Below, in pieces: positions 19,424-31,015 of a DNA stretch of 64,000 nucleotides. Source of the DNA: Pseudomonas sp. MYb327 (GTDB lineage: Bacteria; Pseudomonadota; Gammaproteobacteria; Pseudomonadales; Pseudomonadaceae); NCBI RefSeq assembly GCF_040438925.1, contig NZ_CP159258.1:5045001-5109000 (forward strand), read 5' to 3'. The translations under genes and the position numbers were made by a program. How positions within the stretch are numbered: the first letter of the stretch is position 1; the number at the start of each line of letters is the position of its first letter. The notes beneath the pieces were generated by a model. It searched no databases. It was not told the origin of the DNA and saw only the letters and a program-made list of their open reading frames with translations.

Positions 19424-20500
19424 GTGATCAGGCCGCGTCCAAGCCTTGGGTTACTTGATCGCGTTTTGCGCGTTTTGTTTCCGGGTGTGTTGTTTTTGTT
19501 GCTCAACGGTTGCTCCAGCGTCAGCTATTACAGCCAACTGGCCAGTGGTCAGCTGCAATTGCTGCGAGCTCGAGAGCCGGTGTCCAGCGTTGTTGCCGAC
19601 CCACAGCGCGATGTAAAATTGCGAGCCCATCTGGCTCAATCGCAAAAAGCCCGGACATTCGCCAGCCAACACCTGCACCTGCCGGACAATCAAAGCTACC
19701 GCTTGTACGCCGACATTGGCCGCCCTTTCGTCGTGTGGAACGTGTTTGTCACGCCGGAATTTTCCCTGAAGCCACAGAACCACTGTTTTCCCATCGCCGG
19801 TTGCGTGGCCTATCGCGGTTATTACAGCCAGAGCGCGGCCCGTGGAGAGGCGGCGCTGCAACGCCTGAAAGGCATGGACGTGTCGATCGGCGGAGTCGAG
19901 GCGTATTCGACGCTGGGCTGGTTCAATGACCCGATCATGAATTCGATGATGGGCTGGGGCGATGAGCGGCTGGCCACGCTGATCTTTCACGAACTCGCGC
20001 ATCAACGTGTTTATGTGAAGGACGACACTGAGTTCAACGAATCATTTGCCACCTTCGTCGAACAGGAAGGCACCCGTCAGTGGTGTGCATTCCGTAATCT
20101 TCCTCCGGATAACGGTGCTGAGGCGCAGCGACGGGATCAATTCATTCAGTTGGTGCTCAATACCCGCACACGACTTGAAAAGCTTTACGCCCTGCCACTG
20201 CCGCCCGAGCAAATGCGTCAACGCAAAGCCGCCGAATTCGAGCGCTTGCGGGTTGAATACCGAGAGCTGCGCGACAGCCAATGGGCTGGGGATAAACGTT
20301 ATGACAACTGGATAAACGCCACGATGAACAATGCACGATTGTTGCCGTTTGGGCTGTACGACCAGTGGGTGCCGGCGTTTGCGGCGCTATTCAAGCAAGA
20401 GGGGGGGGATTGGGTGAGGTTTTATGCAAAAGTCGAGAAGCTAGGTGCGTTGACCATCGATCAGCGGAAGACGGCGCTACGTAAACTGGTGGAGAAATAA
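19424..20500 (+). CDS. Lipoprotein aminopeptidase (PF10023-type)
   Basis: 358 residues. Hydrophobic leader with lipobox LFPGVLFLLLNGCSSVSYYS, so probably an outer membrane lipoprotein. It carries the zinc protease motif HELAHQ within ATLIFHELAHQRVYVKDDTE, followed by FNESFATFVEQEGTRQW, which supplies the third ligand glutamate. This matches the putative aminopeptidase family PF10023. The start is GTG 19424 with AGGA about 10 nt upstream. Substrate unknown. It is followed by a REP pair. Confidence 0.86.
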   Translation: MIRPRPSLGLLDRVLRVLFPGVLFLLLNGCSSVSYYSQLASGQLQLLRAREPVSSVVADPQRDVKLRAHLAQSQKARTFASQHLHLPDNQSYRLYADIGRPFVVWNVFVTPEFSLKPQNHCFPIAGCVAYRGYYSQSAARGEAALQRLKGMDVSIGGVEAYSTLGWFNDPIMNSMMGWGDERLATLIFHELAHQRVYVKDDTEFNESFATFVEQEGTRQWCAFRNLPPDNGAEAQRRDQFIQLVLNTRTRLEKLYALPLPPEQMRQRKAAEFERLRVEYRELRDSQWAGDKRYDNWINATMNNARLLPFGLYDQWVPAFAALFKQEGGDWVRFYAKVEKLGALTIDQRKTALRKLVEK

Positions 20501-20506
20501 GTCTGT

Positions 20507-20620
20507 GGCGAGGGAGCTTGCTCCCGCTGGGCCGCGAAGCGGCCCCAGACTATTTTCCAGATAGACATCGTCGATGATTGGCGGCTGCTACGCAGCCGAA
20601 CGGGAGCAAGCTCCCTCGCC
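20507..20620. repeat. REP pair (inverted) after the aminopeptidase gene
   Basis: A 20-bp arm GGCGAGGGAGCTTGCTCCCG (20507-20526) is repeated exactly as its reverse complement at 20601-20620, about 74 nt away. Each arm also contains the self-complementary GGGAGCTTGCTCCC. Between them lie two GC-rich hairpins. This is a BIME-like doublet, in the gap between two convergent genes. Confidence 0.85.
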
Positions 20621-20623
20621 AAA

Positions 20624-21274
20624 TCAACCCTGCAAAAACGCCTGATGCAGCTCTTCCAGCGTTTCGAAATGATAGGCCGGAGCTTCAGCGCTCAACTCTT
20701 CCCGACTGCCAAAACCGTACCCCACCGCCGCCGCATCCAGCCCGTTGCTGCGTGCACCGATCAAATCGTGTTTGCGATCGCCAATCATCAGGGTATGGGC
20801 CGGGTCCAGGCCTTCTTCGGCGATCAAGTGCGCGATCAGCTCGACTTTATTGGTTCGGGTGCCGTCGAGTTCGCTGCCGTAAATCACTTTGAAGTGTTTG
20901 GCGAAATCGAAATGCCGGGCGATCTCACGGGCGAATACCCAAGGTTTGGAGGTCGCGATGAACAGCTGCCGTCCTTGTCCGCCAAGGGTTTCCAATAGCG
21001 GTGTAACACCGTCGAACACGCGGTTTTCATACAGCCCGGTGACTTTGAAGCGTTCGCGATAGAAATTCACCGCGTCCCAGGCCTTCGGCTCGTCGAAGTC
21101 ATAGAACTGCATGAACGCCTGCAACAATGGCGGACCGATGAAGTGTTCGAGCTTGGTCAGGTCGGGTTCATCGATACCCAGTTTACTCAAAGCAAACTGA
21201 ATCGAGCGTGTGATGCCTTCGCGTGGGTCGGTCAGGGTGCCATCGAGGTCGAACAAAACGGTTTGGTAATGCAT
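20624..21274 (-). CDS. HAD-family phosphatase (Gph-like)
   Basis: 216-residue HAD hydrolase. Motif I is VLFDLDGTLTDPREG, motif II FIATSKPWVFARE, motif IV MIGDRKHDLIGARSNGLDAA. A helical cap follows motif I (FIGPPLLQAFMQFYDFDEP). It resembles phosphoglycolate phosphatase or 5'-nucleotidase-type subgroups; substrate unknown. The start MHYQTVLFD at 21274 has AGGAA upstream and puts motif I near residue 9, as usual; the longer frame from 21301 is rejected. It follows the gamma carbonic anhydrase gene by 28 nt and is probably co-transcribed. Confidence 0.87.
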   Translation of the reverse strand: MHYQTVLFDLDGTLTDPREGITRSIQFALSKLGIDEPDLTKLEHFIGPPLLQAFMQFYDFDEPKAWDAVNFYRERFKVTGLYENRVFDGVTPLLETLGGQGRQLFIATSKPWVFAREIARHFDFAKHFKVIYGSELDGTRTNKVELIAHLIAEEGLDPAHTLMIGDRKHDLIGARSNGLDAAAVGYGFGSREELSAEAPAYHFETLEELHQAFLQG

Positions 21275-21302
21275 GAAAATTCCTGAGCAGTAGCGGGACA
21301 CT

Positions 21303-21848
21303 TCAGATCTGGTCGTAGCCTTCGGCCAGATGCAGATCCTTGAGCTTCACGTAGTTCGCCGCGCTGTAGGTGAAAAAGGCTTGCTCCTTGTCCGACAGCG
21401 GCCGAATCTGCTTCACCGGACTACCGACATAAAGGAAACCGCTTTCCAGGCGTTTGCCGGGCGGCACCAGACTACCGGCACCGATAATTACGTCATCCGC
21501 AACCACGGCGCCATCCATGACGATGCTGCCCATGCCGATCAGCACCCGGCTACCCACGGTGCAACCATGCAACATGACTTTGTGCGCGATGGTCACGTCA
21601 TCGCCGATCAGCAACGGGAAACCGTCAGGGTTGAACGGCCCGGCGTGGGTGATGTGCAACACGCAGCCATCCTGCACGCTGGTGCGCGCACCGATGCGGA
21701 TACGGTGCATGTCGCCGCGAATCACCGTCAGTGGCCACACTGAGCTGTCTTCGCCGACCTCGACATCACCGATCACCACCGCCGAACGGTCGACAAAAAC
21801 GCCTTTGCCGAGCAAGGGTGTGTGGTTCTGATACTTGCGAAGGTTCAC
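21303..21848 (-). CDS. Gamma carbonic anhydrase-like hexapeptide protein
   Basis: 181 residues forming a left-handed beta helix of hexapeptide repeats. The family metal-binding histidines are in RTSVQDGCVLHITHAGP and VTIAHKVMLHGCTVG. The leader is VFVDRSAVVIGDVEVGEDSS. It belongs to the YrdA/PaaY/CaiE gamma-CA-like group, with or without true carbonic anhydrase activity. The start is GTG 21848, preceded by AGAGAGAAA; upstream extension would enter the divergent prlC promoter. With the HAD gene it forms a two-gene unit. Confidence 0.88.
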   Translation of the reverse strand: MNLRKYQNHTPLLGKGVFVDRSAVVIGDVEVGEDSSVWPLTVIRGDMHRIRIGARTSVQDGCVLHITHAGPFNPDGFPLLIGDDVTIAHKVMLHGCTVGSRVLIGMGSIVMDGAVVADDVIIGAGSLVPPGKRLESGFLYVGSPVKQIRPLSDKEQAFFTYSAANYVKLKDLHLAEGYDQI

Positions 21849-21937
21849 GATAGGGTTTCTCTCTGTTGCTGATAGCTGCGGTGAACGTCGATTGTAATTA
21901 AGATGGCCGCATGTTTCTTCCAGCCAAGGTGCCAACC

Positions 21938-23989
21938 GTGAGCGTGAACAACCCTCTTTTGCAGTCCTACGACCTGCCGCCGTTCTCCGCGATCCGTGCC
22001 GAGCATGTGCAACCGGCCATTGAACAGATCCTGGCTGACAACCGCGCCGCCATTATCGAGATCCTCAAGACCCAAGGCAAACAGCCAACGTGGGCCGGTC
22101 TGGTACTGGCGATGGACGAACTCAACGACCGCCTGGGCGCCGCGTGGAGCCCGGTCAGCCATCTGAACGCCGTGTGCAACAGCGCCGAATTGCGCGAAGC
22201 CTACGAGTCTTGCCTGCCAGCACTGAGCGCCTATTCCACCGAACTCGGCCAGAATCGGGAACTCTTCCAAGCCTTCGAAGCCCTGGCGAACAGTCCGGAA
22301 GCTGCCGGATTCGATGTAGCGCAGAAAACTATCCTGGAACACTCCCTGCGGGACTTCCGTCTGTCGGGTATTGACCTGCCGGAAGCCGAGCAAAAGCGCT
22401 ACGCCGAAGTGCAGAGCAAATTGTCCGAACTGGGCAGCCGCTTCTCCAATCAATTGCTCGACGCGACTCAAGCCTGGACCAAGCACATTACCGATGAAGC
22501 GGTCCTCGCCGGCCTGACTGACTCGGCCAAGGCGCAAATGGCTGCCGCTGCCCAGGCTAAAGATCTGGAAGGCTGGTTGATCACCCTGGAATTCCCGAGC
22601 TACTTCGCGGTGATGACTTACGCCCACGACCGTGCGCTGCGCGAAGAAGTCTACGCCGCCTACTGCACCCGTGCGTCGGACCAGGGCCCGAATGCCGGTC
22701 AGAACGATAACGGCCCGGTCATGGAAGAAATCCTCGACCTGCGTCAAGAGCTGGCGAAACTGCTGGGCTTCACCAGTTTCTCGGAGCTGAGCCTGGCCAC
22801 CAAAATGGCCGAATCCAGCGATCAGGTGCTGAGTTTCCTGCGCGATCTGGCCAAACGCAGCAAGCCGTTTGCAGCCCAGGATCTGGAACAGCTCAAGGCT
22901 TACGCCGCCGAGCAAGGCTGCCCGGACCTGCAAAGCTGGGACAGCGGTTTCTATGGCGAAAAACTTCGCGAGCAACGTTACAGCGTTGCCCAGGAAGCCC
23001 TGCGTGCCTACTTCCCTATCGATAAAGTGCTGAGTGGTCTGTTCGCCATCGTGCAACGCCTGTACGGCATCGAGATTGCTGAGCAAAAAGGCTTCGACAC
23101 CTGGCACCCGGATGTCCGCCTGTTCGAAATCAAGGAAAATGGTCAGCACGTCGGACGCTTCTTCTTCGACCTCTACGCCCGCGCCAACAAGCGTGGCGGT
23201 GCCTGGATGGACGGCGCCCGCGACCGTCGTCGCACCGCCGAAGGCGTACTGCAAAACCCGGTGGCCAACCTGGTCTGCAATTTCACCCCGGCTGACAGCG
23301 GCAAGCCTGCGCTGCTGACACACGATGAAGTGACCACCCTGTTCCACGAGTTCGGCCATGGCCTGCATCATTTGCTGACCCGCGTCGAACACGCCGGGGT
23401 TTCAGGCATCAACGGCGTGGCTTGGGATGCGGTCGAGTTGCCAAGCCAGTTCATGGAAAACTGGTGCTGGGAGCCGGAAGGCCTGGCGCTGATTTCCGGT
23501 CATTACGAAACCGGCGAACCACTGCCGCAGGACCTGTTGGGCAAAATGCTCGCGGCGAAAAACTTCCAGTCCGGCCTGATGATGGTCCGCCAACTGGAGT
23601 TCTCGCTGTTCGACTTCGAGCTGCACGCCACCCACGGCGACGGTCGCAGTGTGCTGCAAGTGCTTGAAGGCGTGCGTGACGAGGTTTCGGTCATGCGTCC
23701 GCCGGCCTACAACCGTTTCCCCAACAGCTTCGCCCACATCTTCGCCGGTGGTTATGCGGCGGGTTACTACAGCTACAAATGGGCTGAAGTGCTGTCGGCT
23801 GACGCCTTTTCGAAGTTCGAAGAGGAAGGCGTGCTCAACGCCGACACCGGTCGTGCGTTCCGCGAAGCGATCCTGGCACGCGGCGGTTCCCAGGAGCCGA
23901 TGGTGCTGTTCGTCGACTTCCGTGGCCGTGAGCCATCGATTGACGCACTCTTGCGCCACAGCGGCCTGAGTGAGGACGAAGCAGCATGA
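21938..23989 (+). CDS. prlC: Oligopeptidase A (M3 metalloprotease)
   Basis: 683 residues; E. coli OpdA is 680. The M3-family zinc motif FHEFGHGLHH has H470, E471 and H474 as metal and catalytic residues, and the third ligand glutamate lies about 25 residues later. It degrades signal peptides and other short peptides in the cytosol. I chose GTG 21938 (MSVNNPLLQSYDLPPFSAIR) over ATG 21911 because it fits the family N terminus and has AAGG upstream. Its stop overlaps the YheV gene by 4 nt. Confidence 0.93.
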   Translation: MSVNNPLLQSYDLPPFSAIRAEHVQPAIEQILADNRAAIIEILKTQGKQPTWAGLVLAMDELNDRLGAAWSPVSHLNAVCNSAELREAYESCLPALSAYSTELGQNRELFQAFEALANSPEAAGFDVAQKTILEHSLRDFRLSGIDLPEAEQKRYAEVQSKLSELGSRFSNQLLDATQAWTKHITDEAVLAGLTDSAKAQMAAAAQAKDLEGWLITLEFPSYFAVMTYAHDRALREEVYAAYCTRASDQGPNAGQNDNGPVMEEILDLRQELAKLLGFTSFSELSLATKMAESSDQVLSFLRDLAKRSKPFAAQDLEQLKAYAAEQGCPDLQSWDSGFYGEKLREQRYSVAQEALRAYFPIDKVLSGLFAIVQRLYGIEIAEQKGFDTWHPDVRLFEIKENGQHVGRFFFDLYARANKRGGAWMDGARDRRRTAEGVLQNPVANLVCNFTPADSGKPALLTHDEVTTLFHEFGHGLHHLLTRVEHAGVSGINGVAWDAVELPSQFMENWCWEPEGLALISGHYETGEPLPQDLLGKMLAAKNFQSGLMMVRQLEFSLFDFELHATHGDGRSVLQVLEGVRDEVSVMRPPAYNRFPNSFAHIFAGGYAAGYYSYKWAEVLSADAFSKFEEEGVLNADTGRAFREAILARGGSQEPMVLFVDFRGREPSIDALLRHSGLSEDEAA

Positions 23990-24273
23990 GCGAGGGTCCT
24001 GTGATTACCAAACGACGCTTTATCGCCGGTGCTGTTTGCCCGGCGTGCAGCGAGCCGGACAAGTTGATGATGTGGAGCGAAGACGACGTGCCGCATCGCG
24101 AGTGCGTGGCTTGCGGTTATTCCGACACGCTGAATGAACAAGGTCTGTCTGTGCCCAAGGAATTGGGCACCCGAGTCAACACCGCCGCGCTGAAGGTGCC
24201 AGACGCCAAGGTTCAAGCTGTGCAGTTTTTCCCGAACCCTAAGCTGAAGAAAAAGCCTGACGAGCAACACTGA
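23986..24273 (+). CDS. yheV: YheV-family zinc-ribbon protein
   Basis: 95 residues with a four-cysteine zinc ribbon: VCPACSEPDKLMMW and ECVACGYSD. It starts at the ATGA overlapping the prlC stop. The prlC-yheV pairing is widespread in gammaproteobacteria, but the function is unknown. A basic C terminus (KLKKKPDEQH) suggests nucleic acid or ribosome contact, which is only inference. Confidence 0.9.
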   Translation: MSEGPVITKRRFIAGAVCPACSEPDKLMMWSEDDVPHRECVACGYSDTLNEQGLSVPKELGTRVNTAALKVPDAKVQAVQFFPNPKLKKKPDEQH

Positions 24274-24284
24274 GTAGCGAAATT

Positions 24285-24315
24285 TGCCTTCCACTGCGCA
24301 ATGCAGTGGAAGGCA
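24285..24315. terminator. Bidirectional hairpin between yheV and the tyrosine phosphatase gene
   Basis: TGCCTTCCACTGC (24285-24297) and GCAGTGGAAGGCA (24303-24315) form a 13-bp perfect stem with a 5-nt loop. There is no long T-tract on the plus side and an A/T-rich flank on the other. It lies between convergent genes. Confidence 0.75.
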
Positions 24316-24318
24316 TTG

Positions 24319-24963
24319 CTACTGGACATTCGCCGAGTTGAACCAATTTTTCATCGAACAGGCCGCGAACGGGCTTGTGCTGCAATCTCCATTGGCCAGC
24401 GCAGTGCGCAGCTTGTCGACATCAGCCTGCATCATGTAACGAACACCATCCCTGAAATGCGTGCTGTCCCCAAAGCCACCCTGGGTCATTTCACTCAGCG
24501 CATCTTCCTTGCTCCAGCCCTGCACGATCACCCGGTACATCGCCGCGATAAGACCGGTTCGGTCGGACCCGTGTTTGCAATGCATCAGAACCGGGCCATT
24601 GGCTTCGGCGGATTGAATGGTGCGCAGGGCTTTGAGTATGTCGGCGTCATCCACATGATTAGTACGATACGGCAGTTGAACCAAGGCAATTCCAGGTGTG
24701 GACAACCAACTCGAATCCGACTCCGGAAGAAAACTGATCACCGTTCCGACCTTGAGTTTTTCCAGTAGCGAAACCGCTCCACTGTCCGGCAGTGCACTGC
24801 GATAAAGCGTCGGCGACATTTGAAACAGGTTGTATTGCACCTCGATCGGTTGCGCCCACTCTGCCGGGCGGGGCGACGCAGTGTCGTCGGCGAGAACGGA
24901 TGTCAGGGTGAAAATCGCGACCAGCGACAGGCACATCGCAGGGATAAAGCGCGGTAAGGACAT
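24319..24963 (-). CDS. Periplasmic dual-specificity/tyrosine phosphatase, TpbA-like
   Basis: 214 residues with a signal peptide (PAMCLSLVAIFTLTSVLAD) and the CX5R phosphatase signature HCKHGSDRTGLIA (C129, R135). The acid loop could include D105 or D106. The signature and size match TpbA of P. aeruginosa, a periplasmic phosphatase that restrains a membrane diguanylate cyclase there. In that species tpbA is next to the cyclase gene; here it is between yheV and the AT-rich small-gene island, with no cyclase beside it. So family is clear, but the partner is not. The Shine-Dalgarno sequence is weak. Confidence 0.85.
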   Translation of the reverse strand: MSLPRFIPAMCLSLVAIFTLTSVLADDTASPRPAEWAQPIEVQYNLFQMSPTLYRSALPDSGAVSLLEKLKVGTVISFLPESDSSWLSTPGIALVQLPYRTNHVDDADILKALRTIQSAEANGPVLMHCKHGSDRTGLIAAMYRVIVQGWSKEDALSEMTQGGFGDSTHFRDGVRYMMQADVDKLRTALANGDCSTSPFAACSMKNWFNSANVQ

Positions 24964-25124
24964 ACTCGGTTGGCCGTTGAGGAATAGGTTGGATGTTGGC
25001 GTTCAGCTTCAACCCCGAGCGGTCAAAGGTCTGTCAGGCAGGCGTGAATGAAATGTGAAACGCTGCTGCCGGGACCACATGACAGAATCAACAGGGCACC
25101 CGGCAGACTTCAGGCGACGCAGGC

Positions 25125-25433
25125 TTACAATTTCAGCTTGAAGAACGCTTTAGCAAGGTCTTCCAGACCAGGCGATTCTTCGGAATTGTAGGCGTTGGAG
25201 AGAATTTTCCTGACTGAAAAACTAGCCCCCTCATCGAAAGACTCGGCATTGAATGACGAGTCGATTTCCGGCTCCTGACTATCCTCCAGATCCAGTACTT
25301 CAATTCGAACGACGTGTCTCAACGGCGCGACAGGTTTAATTGGTTTCTCAGGATCAAAAACCTCGACGAGCTCGACGCAACCTAGCGAAAGAAAAGCTGC
25401 AAATTCCGGGCGTATTATTGACTGACGGTAAAA
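25125..25433 (-). pseudogene. Third member of the small-paralogue island, no normal start codon
   Basis: An open frame of about 102 codons runs on directly, in the same frame, after the stop codon of the next upstream gene (TAA, 25434-25436). It contains no ATG or GTG start; TTG 25322 is possible but has no ribosome binding site. The C-terminal part (EIDSSFNAESFDEGASFSVR, then LEDLAKAFFKLKL) resembles that of the 25759 gene (DSSIYIASSYDGGKSFSISK, then MLALAKAYASIV), so it is a relative. It may be a truncated copy, be translated by read-through or coupling from the upstream gene, or start at a non-standard codon. Function unknown. Confidence 0.5.
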
Positions 25434-25712
25434 TTAAAGCCCAACTTCAGTGATCGCATTGATATCTTTTTCATCAATGCTTCCGTCCGGAATAACATTT
25501 ATGTCCGACCATGGATCGAAATCGAGCCTGTACTCTTCGGCACCACCGACCTTTATGTGCAAGACCATGACTGTAACTTTGTCAAAGCGATCTGACCATT
25601 TCAGATTATCCGCCTCTTCAGTTTGCGCCCTTACCAATTTAATAATTATTTTATTACTTTCATTGGTTTTTACTCGCTGAAGGTAAACGCCTTTTGTATG
25701 GGGCTCCCACAT
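25434..25712 (-). CDS. Small acidic protein of unknown function (island gene 2)
   Basis: 92 residues, no signal peptide or membrane segment. Begins MWEPHTKGVYLQRVKTNESN and ends with an acidic loop, DINVIPDGSIDEKDI, that resembles an EF-hand or dockerin calcium loop with an insertion. GVYLQRV matches GIFLQKL in the neighbouring 25759 gene, supporting common ancestry. AGGT precedes the ATG. Codon use is visibly more AT-rich than in flanking genes, suggesting later acquisition. I do not recognise the family. Confidence 0.65.
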   Translation of the reverse strand: MWEPHTKGVYLQRVKTNESNKIIIKLVRAQTEEADNLKWSDRFDKVTVMVLHIKVGGAEEYRLDFDPWSDINVIPDGSIDEKDINAITEVGL

Positions 25713-25758
25713 GATTTTACCTGTCTACCATCCCTTTTGCGTTTATTCGGAAAGGCCA

Positions 25759-26043
25759 TTATGGATTGACGATACTCGCATAGGCCTTGGCCAGCGCCAG
25801 CATCCTGGCCTTGTCTTCATTATCGATATCGCCATCATCATCTACATCCTTCGCCTTGCTAATACTGAAAGACTTACCACCATCGTAAGACGACGCAATG
25901 TAGATACTGGAGTCCAACAACTTGTCACCATCCTCACCTGGTTCTTTCAGAGCGAATTGCATCGAAACCAATACTTCATTTGGATCAACGATGGTAGGAC
26001 CAAGCTTTTGAAGAAAGATGCCACGACGATTAAAATACGACAT
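25759..26043 (-). CDS. Small protein with EF-hand-like loop (island gene 1)
   Basis: 94 residues, no signal peptide. The N terminus MSYFNRRGIFLQKLGPTIVD is followed by SIYIASSYDGGKSFSISK and then DVDDDGDIDNEDKARMLALA. In the latter, aspartates at EF-hand positions 1, 3, 5, 9 and 12 (DxDxDGxIDxxD) are all present, so calcium binding is plausible. AAAAGGA lies 8 nt before the ATG, a good ribosome binding site. It heads a probable three-gene transcript on the minus strand. I do not recognise the family. Confidence 0.7.
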   Translation of the reverse strand: MSYFNRRGIFLQKLGPTIVDPNEVLVSMQFALKEPGEDGDKLLDSSIYIASSYDGGKSFSISKAKDVDDDGDIDNEDKARMLALAKAYASIVNP

Positions 26044-26109
26044 TGTAAAATCCTTTTAATTAAACTTATATTTAGGTTTGCTGCGAGAAAAGAATACCGG
26101 CATTTTCAA

Positions 26110-26131
26110 CATATAAACCAGTTCTTATATG
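26110..26131. promoter_or_regulatory. AT-rich inverted repeat between the small-gene island and the radical SAM gene
   Basis: CATATAA (26110-26116) and TTATATG (26125-26131) form an inverted repeat with an 8-nt gap. It lies in the shared upstream region of the divergent island genes and radical SAM gene, and could be an operator or overlap a promoter. Confidence 0.35.
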
Positions 26132-26208
26132 TTTCTCTTAATTGCCTCGCCAATATATAAAGTAAAAAGGTGCCGAACGGCAGTAGCACGTCGACGGATC
26201 TCACGATA

Positions 26209-26224
26209 CTGTATGTGCATACAG
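26209..26224 (+). promoter_or_regulatory. LexA (SOS) box
   Basis: CTGTATGTGCATACAG is a full 16-bp LexA box (CTG-N10-CAG with TAT/ATA inner arms). It lies 15 nt before the radical SAM start and would overlap the transcription start or ribosome binding region, so bound LexA should repress this gene. Confidence 0.87.
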
Positions 26225-26239
26225 CATCAGGATTATCCC

Positions 26240-27298
26240 ATGCAGACGACTTTGCCCCCTCGCGGTCGCGGCACCGCGACCAACCCGCACAACCGCTTCG
26301 CCCCCAATCATTCGGTGGCCGAGGACGACGGCTGGTATCAGGAAGTGCCGATGACCCAAGGCACCGAGGTGCGCATCGAGACGGCGAAAACCATCATCAC
26401 CCGTAACAACTCGCCGGACCTTCCCTTTGACCGCTCGATCAATCCCTATCGCGGTTGCGAGCATGGGTGCATTTATTGTTATGCACGACCCAGCCATGCT
26501 TATTGGGACATGTCGCCGGGGCTGGATTTCGAAACCCGATTGATCGCCAAGACCAACGCGACGGATGTGCTGGAACAACAGCTGTCCAAACGCGGTTATC
26601 AATGCGCGCCAATCAACCTCGGTTCCAACACCGATCCTTATCAGCCGATCGAACGCGAATACAAAATCATCCGACAAACCCTCGAAGTACTGCTGCGATA
26701 CCGCCATCCCGTGACCATCGTCACCAAAGGCTCGCTGATCCTTCGCGATCTGGACTTGCTGACCGAACTGGCACAGCAAAATCTGGTGGCGGTGATGATC
26801 AGCCTGACCACCCTGGACGACGAACTCAAACGCACCCTCGAGCCTCGCGCCGCAGCGCCCAAGGCACGACTGCGAGCGATCCGGGTAATGCGCGAGTCAG
26901 GGATACCGGTGGGGGTGCTGTGTTCTCCGATGATTCCAATGATCAACGACAGCGAACTCGAAAGCCTGCTCACCGAGGCCCATGCAGCCGGGGCGCAGAG
27001 CGCTGCCTACATGATGCTGCGCTTACCGCTGGAAGTGGCACCGTTGTTCGAGGAATGGCTGGCTGCCCACTATCCGCAACGTGCCGCTCATGTCCTGAGC
27101 CTGATTCGCCAGAGCCGTGGTGGTGAGCTCTACGACAGTCGCTTTGGCGCCCGGATGCGCGGCGAAGGGCCTTTTGCAGACCTGTTGGCGCAGCGCTTTG
27201 CCAAAACCATCAAGCGGCTGGGGCTCAACCATCGGGAAGGTTTCAACCTGGACTGCGAAGCCTTCTGTCCGCCGGGTCGCCAAATGTCGTTGATTTGA
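26240..27298 (+). CDS. PA0069-family radical SAM protein (Rv2578c/SplB-like)
   Basis: 352 residues. The 4Fe-4S cluster motif is CEHGCIYC within NPYRGCEHGCIYCYARPSHA, followed by a TIM-barrel core (INLGSNTDPYQPIEREYKII, VTIVTKGSLILRDLD). A C-terminal extension has further cysteines (FNLDCEAFCPPGRQ). Related to the SplB-like branch, so a DNA-repair or nucleic-acid role is plausible, and the LexA box just upstream agrees. I recall the P. aeruginosa orthologue being listed in the LexA regulon. ATG 26240 is preceded by AGGA. Substrate unknown. Confidence 0.9.
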   Translation: MQTTLPPRGRGTATNPHNRFAPNHSVAEDDGWYQEVPMTQGTEVRIETAKTIITRNNSPDLPFDRSINPYRGCEHGCIYCYARPSHAYWDMSPGLDFETRLIAKTNATDVLEQQLSKRGYQCAPINLGSNTDPYQPIEREYKIIRQTLEVLLRYRHPVTIVTKGSLILRDLDLLTELAQQNLVAVMISLTTLDDELKRTLEPRAAAPKARLRAIRVMRESGIPVGVLCSPMIPMINDSELESLLTEAHAAGAQSAAYMMLRLPLEVAPLFEEWLAAHYPQRAAHVLSLIRQSRGGELYDSRFGARMRGEGPFADLLAQRFAKTIKRLGLNHREGFNLDCEAFCPPGRQMSLI

Positions 27299-27541
27299 GG
27301 ACAATTGGCCTATGGTTGAGTATTGGGCAACGCGCCCAAGACTTAAGCTGGTCACGTTTTTTGTGACCTGGAACACACGTTCTAGAGCGATTGATTCAGT
27401 TTGAATTAAGATTCGGCCGCTACCTTGTTCATCGAGTGACTGACGGGTCGAGACCATTGACCTGGATGTTTTTTAACCAGCCACTGGCTTCACACCGGAC
27501 AAACGGGAAAATTCCCCTGACTCCGCCAAAGAGGATGAATC

Positions 27542-28273
27542 ATGAGTGACAAGGATAAACAGCCGTTGGCTGCGTCGGCTTCAGCCCAACCCGAGGCGGA
27601 AACCGCCGATGCAGCGCTGCAGCATATCGTTGACGGCTTTTTGCATTTTCATCACGAGATCTTTCCGCAACAGGAAGAACTCTTCAAAAAACTCGCCACC
27701 GCCCAGCGGCCGCGGGCCATGTTCATCGCCTGCGCCGACTCGCGCATCGTTCCTGAGTTAATCACTCAAAGCGCCCCCGGCGACTTGTTCGTCACTCGCA
27801 ACGTTGGCAACGTCGTGCCGCCGTATGGGCAAATGAACGGTGGTGTTTCCACAGCTATCGAGTACGCCGTGCTGGCCCTCGGCGTGCATCACATCATCAT
27901 TTGCGGGCATTCCGACTGTGGCGCGATGCGCGCAGTACTCAACCCGCAAAGCCTGGAAAAAATGCCCACGGTCAAAGCCTGGCTGCGGCATGCCGAAGTG
28001 GCGAAAACCATGGTCCAGGACAACTGCAACTGCGCGAACGAAAGCGAAAGCATGCACATCCTCACCGAAGAGAATGTGATCGCCCAATTGCAGCATTTGC
28101 GCACTCACCCATCGGTGGCTTCGCGCATGGCCAATGGTCAGTTGTTTATCCATGGTTGGGTCTACAACATCGAAACCAGCGAAATCAAAGCCTACGACGC
28201 TGATCAAGGTTGTTTCCTGCCGCTCAATGGCAGTCTGCCAATACCGGTGGCGACGCCTAAAGCGCGCTTCTAA
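27542..28273 (+). CDS. Beta-class carbonic anhydrase
   Basis: 243 residues. Zinc ligands: C64 in FIACADSRIVPE (with the D66-R68 dyad), H123 and C126 in CGHSDCGAMR. It hydrates CO2 to bicarbonate in the cytosol. AAAGAGGATGAATC precedes the ATG. The 94-nt spacing to a SulP transporter on the same strand suggests one unit for CO2/bicarbonate handling; the same pair exists in P. aeruginosa (PA0102-PA0103 by my recollection). Confidence 0.95.
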   Translation: MSDKDKQPLAASASAQPEAETADAALQHIVDGFLHFHHEIFPQQEELFKKLATAQRPRAMFIACADSRIVPELITQSAPGDLFVTRNVGNVVPPYGQMNGGVSTAIEYAVLALGVHHIIICGHSDCGAMRAVLNPQSLEKMPTVKAWLRHAEVAKTMVQDNCNCANESESMHILTEENVIAQLQHLRTHPSVASRMANGQLFIHGWVYNIETSEIKAYDADQGCFLPLNGSLPIPVATPKARF

Positions 28274-28366
28274 ATACTCCTAAAAATCCCCCGTGTGGGT
28301 TAGCCGTGGCTGCCGATCAGGCAGCCTGGCTTTGCCATGCCTGAAGAAAACTTCGGGAGAATCATT

Positions 28367-29893
28367 ATGCGTGCTTCGCAACTCAAAGCTGTTCTGCCAC
28401 GGGAGTTATTGGCTTCGGTGGTTGTGTTTCTGGTCGCCCTGCCCTTGTGCATGGGCATCGCGATCGCTTCGGGACTTCCCCCGGCAAAAGGCCTGATCAC
28501 CGGGATCATCGGTGGTTTGGTAGTGGGCTGGTTGGCCGGTTCGCCTCTGCAAGTCAGCGGCCCTGCGGCGGGACTCGCGGTGCTGGTGTTCGAACTGGTG
28601 CGCCTGCATGGTGTGGTCATGCTCGGGCCGATCCTGCTGCTGGCGGGCTTTCTGCAATTGGTGGCCGGCCGGTTGAAACTGGGCTGCTGGTTTCGAGTGA
28701 CGGCGCCAGCCGTTGTTTACGGCATGCTCGCTGGTATTGGCGTGCTGATCATCTTGTCCCAGGTGCACGTGATGCTCGACGCCGCGCCGAAACCTTCGGG
28801 GATGGATAACCTTGCAGCGTTCCCGAGTGCCGTGGCTCAAGCCTTGCCTTCGTTAGGTTGGCAGGCCGGTCTGCTCGGGCTGGGGACGATCGCCGTGATG
28901 TGGCTGTGGGAAAAATTGCGCCCACATGCCCTGCGTTTCGTCCCCGGCGCGCTGCTTGGGGTCGGGCTCGCCACTGTCGCCAGCCTGGCCCTGGCGTTGC
29001 AGGTTAACCGAGTGGAAGTCCCGGCCAACCTGGCCGAAGCGATTGACTGGCTGAAACCGGCGGACTTGCTGAACCTGGCTGACCCCACATTGCTGATCGC
29101 AGCGTTCGCAGTGGCCTTTATCGCCAGCGCAGAAACCCTGCTTTCGGCCGCCGCAGTTGACCGTATGCACAGCGGCGAGCGTTCAGATTTTGATCGCGAA
29201 CTGTCAGCCCAAGGGGTCGGCAATATGCTCTGCGGATTGCTCGGAGCGTTGCCGATGACCGGTGTGATCGTGCGCAGTTCGGCCAACGTGCAGGCCGGTG
29301 CCACTACCCGGTACTCGACGATTTTCCACGGGTTGTGGCTGCTGGCGTTCGTGCTGTTGCTGTCGAGTGTGCTGCAAAGCATTCCGGTGGCGAGCCTGGC
29401 CGGCGTGTTGGTGTACACGGGATTCAAACTGGTGGATCTCAAGGTCTTTCGGGGGTTGGGGCGTTACGGCCGGATGCCGATGTTCACTTACGCCGCGACG
29501 GCGCTGGCGATCATATTCACTGACTTGCTGACCGGCGTGCTGATCGGCTTCGGCCTGACCCTGGCCAAACTGGCGTGGAAAGCCTCGCGATTGAAGATAA
29601 GTCTGATCGACTTGCCACAGGACGGCGAAATGGAGTTGCGGCTTGTGGGTGCAGCGACCTTTCTCAAGGTGCCGGCGTTGACACAGGTACTGGGCAGCAT
29701 TCCTGCCGGCGCGACGGTGCATGTGCCGCTCAATAATCTGAGCTACATCGATCATGCGTGCCTGGAGTTGCTGGAGGAATGGGGGCGGGCGAATGCGGCG
29801 AAGGGGTCGAAGCTGTTGATTGAGGCGCGGGGGTTGAAACGTCGGCTTGAAGGGCGGATGCGCACCACCGCCGGAGTGGGTTCAATCGGATAA
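28367..29893 (+). CDS. SulP-family anion transporter (probable bicarbonate or sulfate)
   Basis: 508 residues. The first ~400 residues contain about 10-12 hydrophobic helices of the SLC26/SulP core (LPLCMGIAIASGLPPAKGLI, LLSAAAVDRMHSGERSDFDR). A C-terminal STAS-like domain starts near residue 420 (MELRLVGAATFLKVPALTQV, LNNLSYIDHACLELLEEW). ATG 28367 has GGGAGAA 7 nt upstream and is preferred over ATG 28337. Adjacency to carbonic anhydrase points to bicarbonate as substrate; sulfate cannot be excluded. Confidence 0.87.
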   Translation: MRASQLKAVLPRELLASVVVFLVALPLCMGIAIASGLPPAKGLITGIIGGLVVGWLAGSPLQVSGPAAGLAVLVFELVRLHGVVMLGPILLLAGFLQLVAGRLKLGCWFRVTAPAVVYGMLAGIGVLIILSQVHVMLDAAPKPSGMDNLAAFPSAVAQALPSLGWQAGLLGLGTIAVMWLWEKLRPHALRFVPGALLGVGLATVASLALALQVNRVEVPANLAEAIDWLKPADLLNLADPTLLIAAFAVAFIASAETLLSAAAVDRMHSGERSDFDRELSAQGVGNMLCGLLGALPMTGVIVRSSANVQAGATTRYSTIFHGLWLLAFVLLLSSVLQSIPVASLAGVLVYTGFKLVDLKVFRGLGRYGRMPMFTYAATALAIIFTDLLTGVLIGFGLTLAKLAWKASRLKISLIDLPQDGEMELRLVGAATFLKVPALTQVLGSIPAGATVHVPLNNLSYIDHACLELLEEWGRANAAKGSKLLIEARGLKRRLEGRMRTTAGVGSIG

Positions 29894-29897
29894 GCCT

Positions 29898-29983
29898 TGC
29901 AGGAGCCCGACTTGCCGACGATGAACGATAACGCGGTTGACCTGAAAACCACATCGTTCATCGCCGGCAAGCCAGCTCCCACA
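29898..29983. repeat. REP-type inverted repeat
   Basis: The left arm GGAGCCCGACTTGCCGACG (from about 29901) and right arm ending GCCGGCAAGCCAGCTCCC pair imperfectly around a loop containing AACGATAACGCGG. It belongs to the GGCTTGCC-GGCGATG REP family also seen at 33836, 39601 and 48507. It lies between convergent genes. Confidence 0.75.
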
Positions 29984-29994
29984 GAAATCTGCGC

Positions 29995-30645
29995 TTATGC
30001 TACCGGCTGATCCAGCTCCAGGCCTACGCCCAGACGGCGTGACATGCACGGCCAACGCTTCCACGCGGCGCCGGTGTCCGGGCTGCTGAGCTTCTCGCGG
30101 TAGGCTTCCACCGACTCCAGTGCAAAGCTGTCTTCGTCGAGCATCTCGTCAATGGCGTGATGCACCGCCTCGTCCAGTTGGTTGGCAAATTCCTCACCGA
30201 TCAATTGGTGGGCAATCAGGTTGGCGACAGTCATGTCCAAGGGGATCAGTGGCTGGCCGAAATGCTTGATGTACAGGTCGTTGACCTCTTCGACAAAACG
30301 GTGCGCCAGATAGGCTTCGTCCAGCAGGCTGTCGAGCCCGACGTGCCCGGCCATGATGGCGGGCGGCTGGAGGAAGTACTGTTCGGCGATTTTCAGCACC
30401 GGTTTGATCTGTGACTCGATACCCGCTTCCCTGGCGACTTCATTGGCTGCATCCAGCAGATCAGGAACTTCATCGATATAAGCGGCGACAAAACGCGTCA
30501 GCACGCCATTGGCGTCGTTCTCCGGCAATTGGATCGCCGGGTGTAAATGAGGCAGTTTGCTTTCCAGCTGACGAGTCAGCAGTCCGGTTTCGGCTTCGTG
30601 TTGTTGGGCTTTTTGGATCTGCTCGCGCAATGCGGCGGTGTTCAT
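29995..30645 (-). CDS. Conserved hypothetical protein (PA0104-like)
   Basis: 216 residues, soluble, no signal peptide, mainly helical, acidic. Recognisable stretches are VLTRFVAAYIDEVPDLLDAA and GHVGLDSLLDEAYLAHRFVE. It is found beside the carbonic anhydrase/SulP pair and coxB in other pseudomonads, so its presence here is expected; no motif suggests a function. The start MNTAALREQ at 30645 has TGGAG upstream; six extra residues from 30663 are unlikely. Confidence 0.8.
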   Translation of the reverse strand: MNTAALREQIQKAQQHEAETGLLTRQLESKLPHLHPAIQLPENDANGVLTRFVAAYIDEVPDLLDAANEVAREAGIESQIKPVLKIAEQYFLQPPAIMAGHVGLDSLLDEAYLAHRFVEEVNDLYIKHFGQPLIPLDMTVANLIAHQLIGEEFANQLDEAVHHAIDEMLDEDSFALESVEAYREKLSSPDTGAAWKRWPCMSRRLGVGLELDQPVA

Positions 30646-31015
30646 GAAAACTCCAGGAAACAAGGCAATGAAATAGGGAAGACATAACTTAGCTGGCTTA
30701 CGAAATTTGCTAAGACGCTTTTGTCATAATTATTTCATCCTTGAGACGTCGTCGTTATATCCATTAGCCACCACTCGTCTGCATCCTTCTCCATTCGTGA
30801 CCTGCAATGCAAGTTAATGCTGTTTCATTTGATTTACGCCTTCACATTGCGAGGTGAGAGTCGCTGTCTATACTCGGGTTGGAATGGAGTTAGCTGATGA
30901 CGCCCGACTGCATATGCAGCAAGGCCCGGCGATTCAAGTTCGTAGTCTGAAACAGCCGCTCCCTTGCCGCAGGTGAAAGCCGGCGGGATAACAAGAACGA
31001 TAAGGGGAACCCGCA
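30646..31015. other. Upstream region of coxB
   Basis: 370 bases with no gene. It holds a good sigma70 promoter (30847-30874) and a 12-bp palindrome CTGCATATGCAG (30908-30919) in the coxB leader, 97 nt before the start codon. Confidence 0.6.
30847..30874 (+). promoter_or_regulatory. Probable coxB promoter
   Basis: TTGCGA (30847-30852), a 16-nt spacer and TATACT (30869-30874). Transcription would begin about 30881, giving a leader of roughly 135 nt. Confidence 0.5.

Follow-up and report, generated by a model that had tools for sequence, protein, structure and literature searches.

What is encoded in the AT-rich stretch at positions 25125-26043 of a 64,000-nucleotide window of Pseudomonas sp. 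MYb327, and is any of it a working gene? The window, by which we mean the whole stretch of DNA analysed, covers positions 5045001-5109000 of a genome of 6.15 Mb in one contig, and an original prediction made from its letters alone had placed three small paralogous genes with EF-hand-like loops in this part of it. We find two genes: A, which is complete and conserved, and a two-domain tandem paralogue, BC, which is split by a stop codon. Taken as a whole, a reading in which A is functional, BC is a pseudogene, calcium (Ca2+) docks a helix in the product of A, and the locus was acquired by a single Pseudomonas clade is in our judgement probable rather than secure.

Gene content of the AT-rich stretch

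Three minus-strand frames are present where they had been predicted, but they amount to two genes, one of them broken (Table 1). Frame A is complete, with 94 residues from its ATG, and frame B likewise opens with an ATG and encodes 92 residues. Frame C, of about 101 codons from stop to stop, has no start codon for a full-length product, its earliest being a TTG that yields 65 residues only. Together B and C form a single reading frame of 195 codons interrupted by one TAA (25434-25436), and BC is homologous over its full length to two-domain genes that are intact in relatives. Because there is one frame with one TAA, and fused copies are intact in relatives, we treat B and C as the halves of one gene and not as the independent paralogues first proposed; BC is a case of plain gene decay.

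Table 1. Features of the AT-rich stretch and its flanks, in window positions.
Feature	Position	Strand	Remarks
Gene A, 94-residue protein	25759..26043	-	One roughly beta4-alpha domain; same-site orthologues, dN/dS, conserved loop ligands
Frame B, N-terminal domain of two-domain gene BC	25434..25712	-	Continuous with C; fused copies intact in relatives
Frame C, C-terminal domain of BC past the TAA	25125..25433	-	No full-length start codon; no calcium loop
Intergenic region between divergent A and radSAM	26044..26239	.	G+C content 0.372
LexA-type box CTGTATGTGCATACAG	26209..26224	.	Palindromic, 15 bp before radSAM ATG
Flank: PA0069 family radical SAM protein (radSAM)	26240..27298	+	NF033668, 496.1 bits (cut-off 360)
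Flank: tyrosine-phosphatase-family protein	24319..24963	-	PF03162, 40.2 bits (cut-off 27)

Copies of BC elsewhere allow its history to be followed (loci and genomes are given by our own L and G handles). Our named collection yielded 100 confirmed relatives; we kept the 80 most like A, which are not an even sample, and an intact two-domain gene follows A in nine of these 80 loci (L086, L090, L092, L095, L125, L128, L130, L134 and L158), and the gene is damaged in L105 and L135. Across an even sample of the genus, the two-domain query matched 14 of 398 genomes at an expectation value (E) of 0.1 or better: six carry full-length open BC frames (G128, which is the query's own genome, G251, G232, G277, G225 and G372), and of the other eight, one is the window's stop-bearing copy and seven are partial or weak matches. 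When compared with L086 by the Nei-Gojobori method, a single pair, the ratio of nonsynonymous to synonymous change (dN/dS) is 0.23 for B and 0.22 for C, and BC was therefore probably under selection until recently. These same ratios, obtained for each half, could be taken to favour B and C as two separate small genes with the TAA as their natural boundary, a reading that we hold to be extremely improbable given the intact fused copies in the nine named loci and in six of the 398 genomes (the query's own included), and the want of a full-length start codon in C.

Several features that had drawn attention to the stretch were recovered. A and B share a motif near the start (GIFLQKL and GVYLQRV, respectively), A and C share DSS....S.D.G.SFS..K and LAKA, and A carries the loop DVDDDGDIDNED, of which B has the variant DINVIPDGSIDEKD. 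The B loop contains two extra residues; it is of the same kind in nine aligned copies, with single changes in L090 and L128. The stretch is also AT-rich as described, with a G+C content (GC) of 0.445 against 0.584 for the window, and GC is as low in only six of 1262 equal-length windows, every one of which overlaps it.

Selection on A and its distribution

Pairwise Nei-Gojobori comparisons were made between the window's copy of A and seven orthologues. Five of the seven give a dN/dS of 0.10-0.14 (L086, 0.139; L087, 0.137; L090, 0.137; L092, 0.099; L088, 0.099), indicating that A evolves under purifying selection. An excess of synonymous over nonsynonymous change had been put forward as a test of whether the frames are genes, as had presence and absence in related strains; both results favour a gene, with A confined to one clade.

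Strong matches to A (E below 1e-18) occur in 36 of 199 genus genomes and weaker ones in five, 41 in all at E 0.01. In all 35 of the strongly matching loci other than the window's, A lies on the radSAM side of the site, with further family members between in L035 and L045, and the same holds for 80/80 of the named loci kept, with family members between in L119 and L131. All 80 named loci are from Pseudomonas, the closest of them from P. fluorescens strain C2. For a phylogenetic view, radSAM was found in 96 of 99 genus genomes and the adjoining site could be read in 81 of the 96; the other 15 are mostly the most divergent, and none is among the genomes matching A. One genome with a broken radSAM (G087) was dropped for length, leaving 80 rows in a single-gene tree of the radSAM protein (IQ-TREE, midpoint root). 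The 18 rows with A all belong to a single 27-row clade (support 98/91), and because of this we regard A as a clade-specific gene, not a fresh island. A single acquisition at this site by one Pseudomonas clade, followed by occasional loss, is probable. The later insertion initially suspected thus gives way to a gene that is common to one clade and probably old there, and the suggestion of a lineage-specific accessory system fits a clade-specific A to which no credible Pfam or NCBIfam model applies. Where the site is empty (G046, G055 and G016, among others), a cytochrome c gene reaches radSAM with no family member between; it is clustered with a GMC oxidoreductase gene and in some genomes also with one for a gluconate 2-dehydrogenase subunit 3 protein, a cluster absent from this site in the window.

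A mobile island or phage remnant that still passes between strains, with A and BC as its cargo, is a reading we disfavour as highly improbable. Low GC, patchy presence and the scatter of the family over several Pseudomonas sites would agree with it, as would a 14-nt perfect inverted repeat (25016-25029 and 26424-26437) that spans the stretch, although a repeat of this kind also arose in 3/200 shuffles. Set against this, the A-bearing genomes lie in one clade and carry A at one site; no transfer RNA gene was found in 20000-31000 and no direct repeat of at least 14 nt in 24250-26500; neither A nor an A4-type relative (see below) matched phages or plasmids, and the A profile matched nothing in viral contigs. 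Of the inverted repeat, one arm falls within radSAM, and none of the seven relatives examined has it in perfect form; it is probably due to chance.

A candidate calcium-binding module

The loop of A occupies residues 66-77 and is of the Dx[DN]xDG type. To describe its conservation we used 60 distinct A sequences (the window's and 59 orthologues, out of 80 fetched), and the search patterns that fetched the A loci lay outside the loop. D66 and D77 are present in all 60; position 68 is D in 55 and N in 5, and position 70 is D in 50 and N in 10. Elsewhere in the loop, G71 is kept in 56 sequences and I, V or F at position 73 in all 60, and the loop aspartates are also invariant in the ten rows of the A4 subfamily. 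These conserved ligands support a strong inference that A binds Ca2+. An AlphaFold2 model of A (mean predicted local distance difference test score, pLDDT, 74.2; predicted template modelling score, pTM, 0.56) places three strands (7-14, 24-34 and 41-52) ahead of a strand of just two residues (60-61) and a helix at 75-92; in the model of the intact BC of L086 (pLDDT 71.5, pTM 0.74) the arrangement appears twice, with an extra short strand in the second copy. The isoelectric point (pI) of A is 4.52, and 13/13 members tested are acidic (pI 4.05 to 5.37). Because a simple hydropathy scan, with no signal-peptide program used, found no strongly hydrophobic N-terminal stretch in 13 members, export by a classical signal is unlikely, and the secreted role suggested earlier loses its footing.

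A most likely encodes a small Ca2+-binding protein that is not exported and whose C-terminal helix is docked by Ca2+ at a strand-loop-helix hinge. It would consist of a small antiparallel sheet, then a dockerin- or EF-type loop, then one amphipathic helix, and would reside in the cytosol as far as sequence tells. One Ca2+ would be held by D66, D68, D70 and D77, residues whose conservation is observed directly; the bound ion would order the hinge and dock the helix KARMLALAKAYASIV on the sheet, making A a calcium-stabilised or calcium-switched binding module. BC contained two copies of the domain, the first having a variant loop and the second lacking one, before a stop codon split it in this genome, and the locus is maintained by purifying selection.

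Two other views of the loop deserve weight. The loop may bind Ca2+ just to stabilise the fold, in a protein whose task (for example as a binding or inhibitor protein) is unrelated to calcium signalling. The domain can manage without the loop, which is single in A, missing from domain C and degraded in the L035/L131 paralogue, and structure stabilisation is given as a common role of calcium binding by Rigden et al. 2011 (PMC3123361). Conservation of the ligands in 60/60 A sequences speaks for more than this, yet is compatible with a structural site too, and we rate a purely stabilising role as possible, if doubtful. Less likely still, and in our view improbable, is a Pseudomonas-specific family of intracellular calcium sensors. 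In such a family a compact domain of sheet plus helix, bearing as many as three DxDxDG-type loops, would have undergone tandem duplication and reached several conserved sites, and would switch partners as Ca2+ rises.

Several observations weigh against a functional, Ca2+-docked A acquired once by a single clade. The DxDxDG loop may be structural only, and among seven A2 paralogues one lacks D77 and another has a gap at position 68. Confidence in the structural models is only middling, strand four of A spans just two residues, and no clear match of the model to a solved fold was found. Direct profile links of the BC family (A3 profile) are weak (54.9% against A4, 16.7% against A6 and 1.0% against A7). 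Synonymous change between A and its orthologues in L091 and L102 is saturated, so that two of the seven pairs give no ratio. Finally, A is absent from nine of the 27 rows of its clade and is hence dispensable, and one gain followed by losses was not formally separated from several gains within the clade.

Among known systems, dockerin type I (PF00404) offers the closest comparison for the loop. The likeness lies in a twelve-residue loop, DxDxDGxxDxxD, whose position 12 is Asp, and in the helix that follows; the ligand positions 1, 3, 5 and 12 of what we take to be the dockerin loop consensus are present in the A loop across the 60 sequences, and a PDB sequence search ranked chain 2ccl_B of xylanase Y, a dockerin, first, though at no better than E 0.053 across 20 residues. 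Type I dockerins have two loop-helix repeats, whereas A has a single loop and a single helix, with strands before the loop in its model. Neither A nor B nor C matched Dockerin_1 up to E 10, and two of eight relatives pass the cut-off of 22.9 bits (L197, 27.4; L199, 24.3), both double-domain proteins with best stretches of 20 residues. With the loop alone alike, membership of A among the dockerins is not supported; such loop-only Dockerin_1 matches may mislabel proteins of this kind, L197 and L199 being a possible source of wrong labels.

A may also differ from the helix-loop-helix EF-hand, its model showing strand-loop-helix at a mean pLDDT of only 74, and it has no EF-hand Pfam match. As regards FG-GAP or calcium-blade proteins (PF13517), the first strand-loop-strand of some A4-type relatives reads DMDRDGSPEI, three relatives give sub-threshold FG-GAP_3 matches (E 0.004, 0.15 and 0.31), and the A4 profile matched a protein that we ourselves labelled FG-GAP-like (E 0.002). 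Aligned with an FG-GAP profile built from one protein, A4 matches over 16 columns (36%), A (A2) over 9 (34%), A6 over 13 (23%), A7 over 40 (3%) and A3 over 10 (0.5%). FG-GAP ancestry is not supported, as the profile-profile likeness extends no further than the loop and there is no propeller of blades. The loop of A does fit the linear calcium motif Dx[DN]xDG, with D-x-[DN]-x-[DN]-G and a hydrophobic residue at position 8, as laid out by Rigden et al. 2011 (PMC3123361); according to the same paper, the contexts of the motif include strand-loop-helix settings like that of A, and loops so placed bound Ca2+ in solved structures. A departs from these examples in that its host domain is unmatched to a known fold and the fifth position is N in 10/60 sequences. 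EfhP (PA4107) of P. aeruginosa is likewise a Pseudomonas protein with calcium loops, in its case two canonical EF-hand motifs as described in PMC9132961, and is set beside A by description only.

The mechanisms of bacterial calcium signalling are little known, according to PMC9132961. A family as yet without a name, whose calcium ligands are well conserved, which shows no evident export signal and whose presence and absence follow a clear pattern within one clade, supplies small, testable candidates. It is ordinary for a small protein specific to one clade to carry an already known linear calcium motif; the more notable part is an unnamed domain set at several sites of the genus with strongly conserved ligands.

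The wider family and the neighbourhood of A

A, B and C belong to an unnamed Pseudomonas superfamily whose members have one or two roughly beta4-alpha domains each. Profile comparisons (hhalign) link the A family to B with 95.6%, to C with 92.2% and to A4 with 99.2% probability; B against C directly gives 0.4%, which is not significant. An iterated profile search of the fetched loci returned 166 open frames (100 in named loci and 66 in others), many of them the same gene in overlapping loci, and the A4 subfamily profile matched 53 of 199 genus genomes at E 0.001, a count in which A itself is included, as in the window. Members adjoin DUF2868/DUF3482-like genes (assigned by Pfam in L201, and by gene size only in L197, L198, L200 and L216), a hybrid histidine kinase gene (by Pfam in L206, by gene size in L207 and L212), and further sites elsewhere. 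The window's genome holds a second member, a distant two-domain relative (G000:C1:5480942-5481364; 1405-1830 of L277), adjoining frames that, judged by eye, resemble an HD-domain protein and a GTPase.

Outside the genus, the A1 profile run over 244 genomes of the order gave two matches, both within the genus; the A4 profile over 194 genomes matched only the window's genome and the FG-GAP-like protein; and the A6 profile over 185 genomes of the class matched only the window's genome. A search of 145 genomes with the A7 profile had no positive control and is uninformative. Consistent with the original prediction, which recognised no family, Pfam and NCBIfam searches gave no credible model for A, B or C; PF20822 (E 0.012, 16.6 bits, cut-off 27) and DUF6557 (E 0.046, 14.7 bits, cut-off 27.8) were rejected as below cut-off. 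A word search of the literature text available found no description of the A/BC family, though such a search cannot exclude an unnamed one. PHROGs gave a single weak match for A (phrog_22379, E 0.072) and none for four relatives, and PADLOC gave none for A or the four relatives. We consider it very unlikely that A and BC are orphan immunity-type proteins, small tandem paralogues that bind and neutralise the toxins of rivals.

Upstream of A, an AAAAGGA block precedes the gene and is identical in 10/10 aligned loci. A CTGT-N8-ACAG box, CTGTATGTGCATACAG in the window, which we take to be a LexA box, lies upstream of A in 74/80 named loci, where the L119 match (at -547) is a different sequence and the six box-less loci include four that the effective scan did not cover (L108, L129, L140 and L143). 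Because 53/59 loci that lack the family also have such a box near radSAM, the box most likely belongs to that gene, though it may control A too; it suggests that radSAM is under SOS control across much of the genus. Our literature search found nothing linking LexA with PA0069. A terminator-like hairpin occurs upstream of A in 19/81 upstream regions, at differing places, and not in that of the window; promoter and terminator scans of the window did no better than shuffles, and no Rfam family was found in 24200-26500.

Two further observations concern the flanking genes. Beside A, radSAM is split or cut in L033 (G087), L092 and L105, with the pieces in L033 about 4.7 kb apart, and the locus therefore takes further insertions. 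In many relatives (L041, L045, L047 and others) the phosphatase gene adjoins a second gene of oligopeptidase-A type, which shares about 39-46% identity with prlC and is absent from the window.
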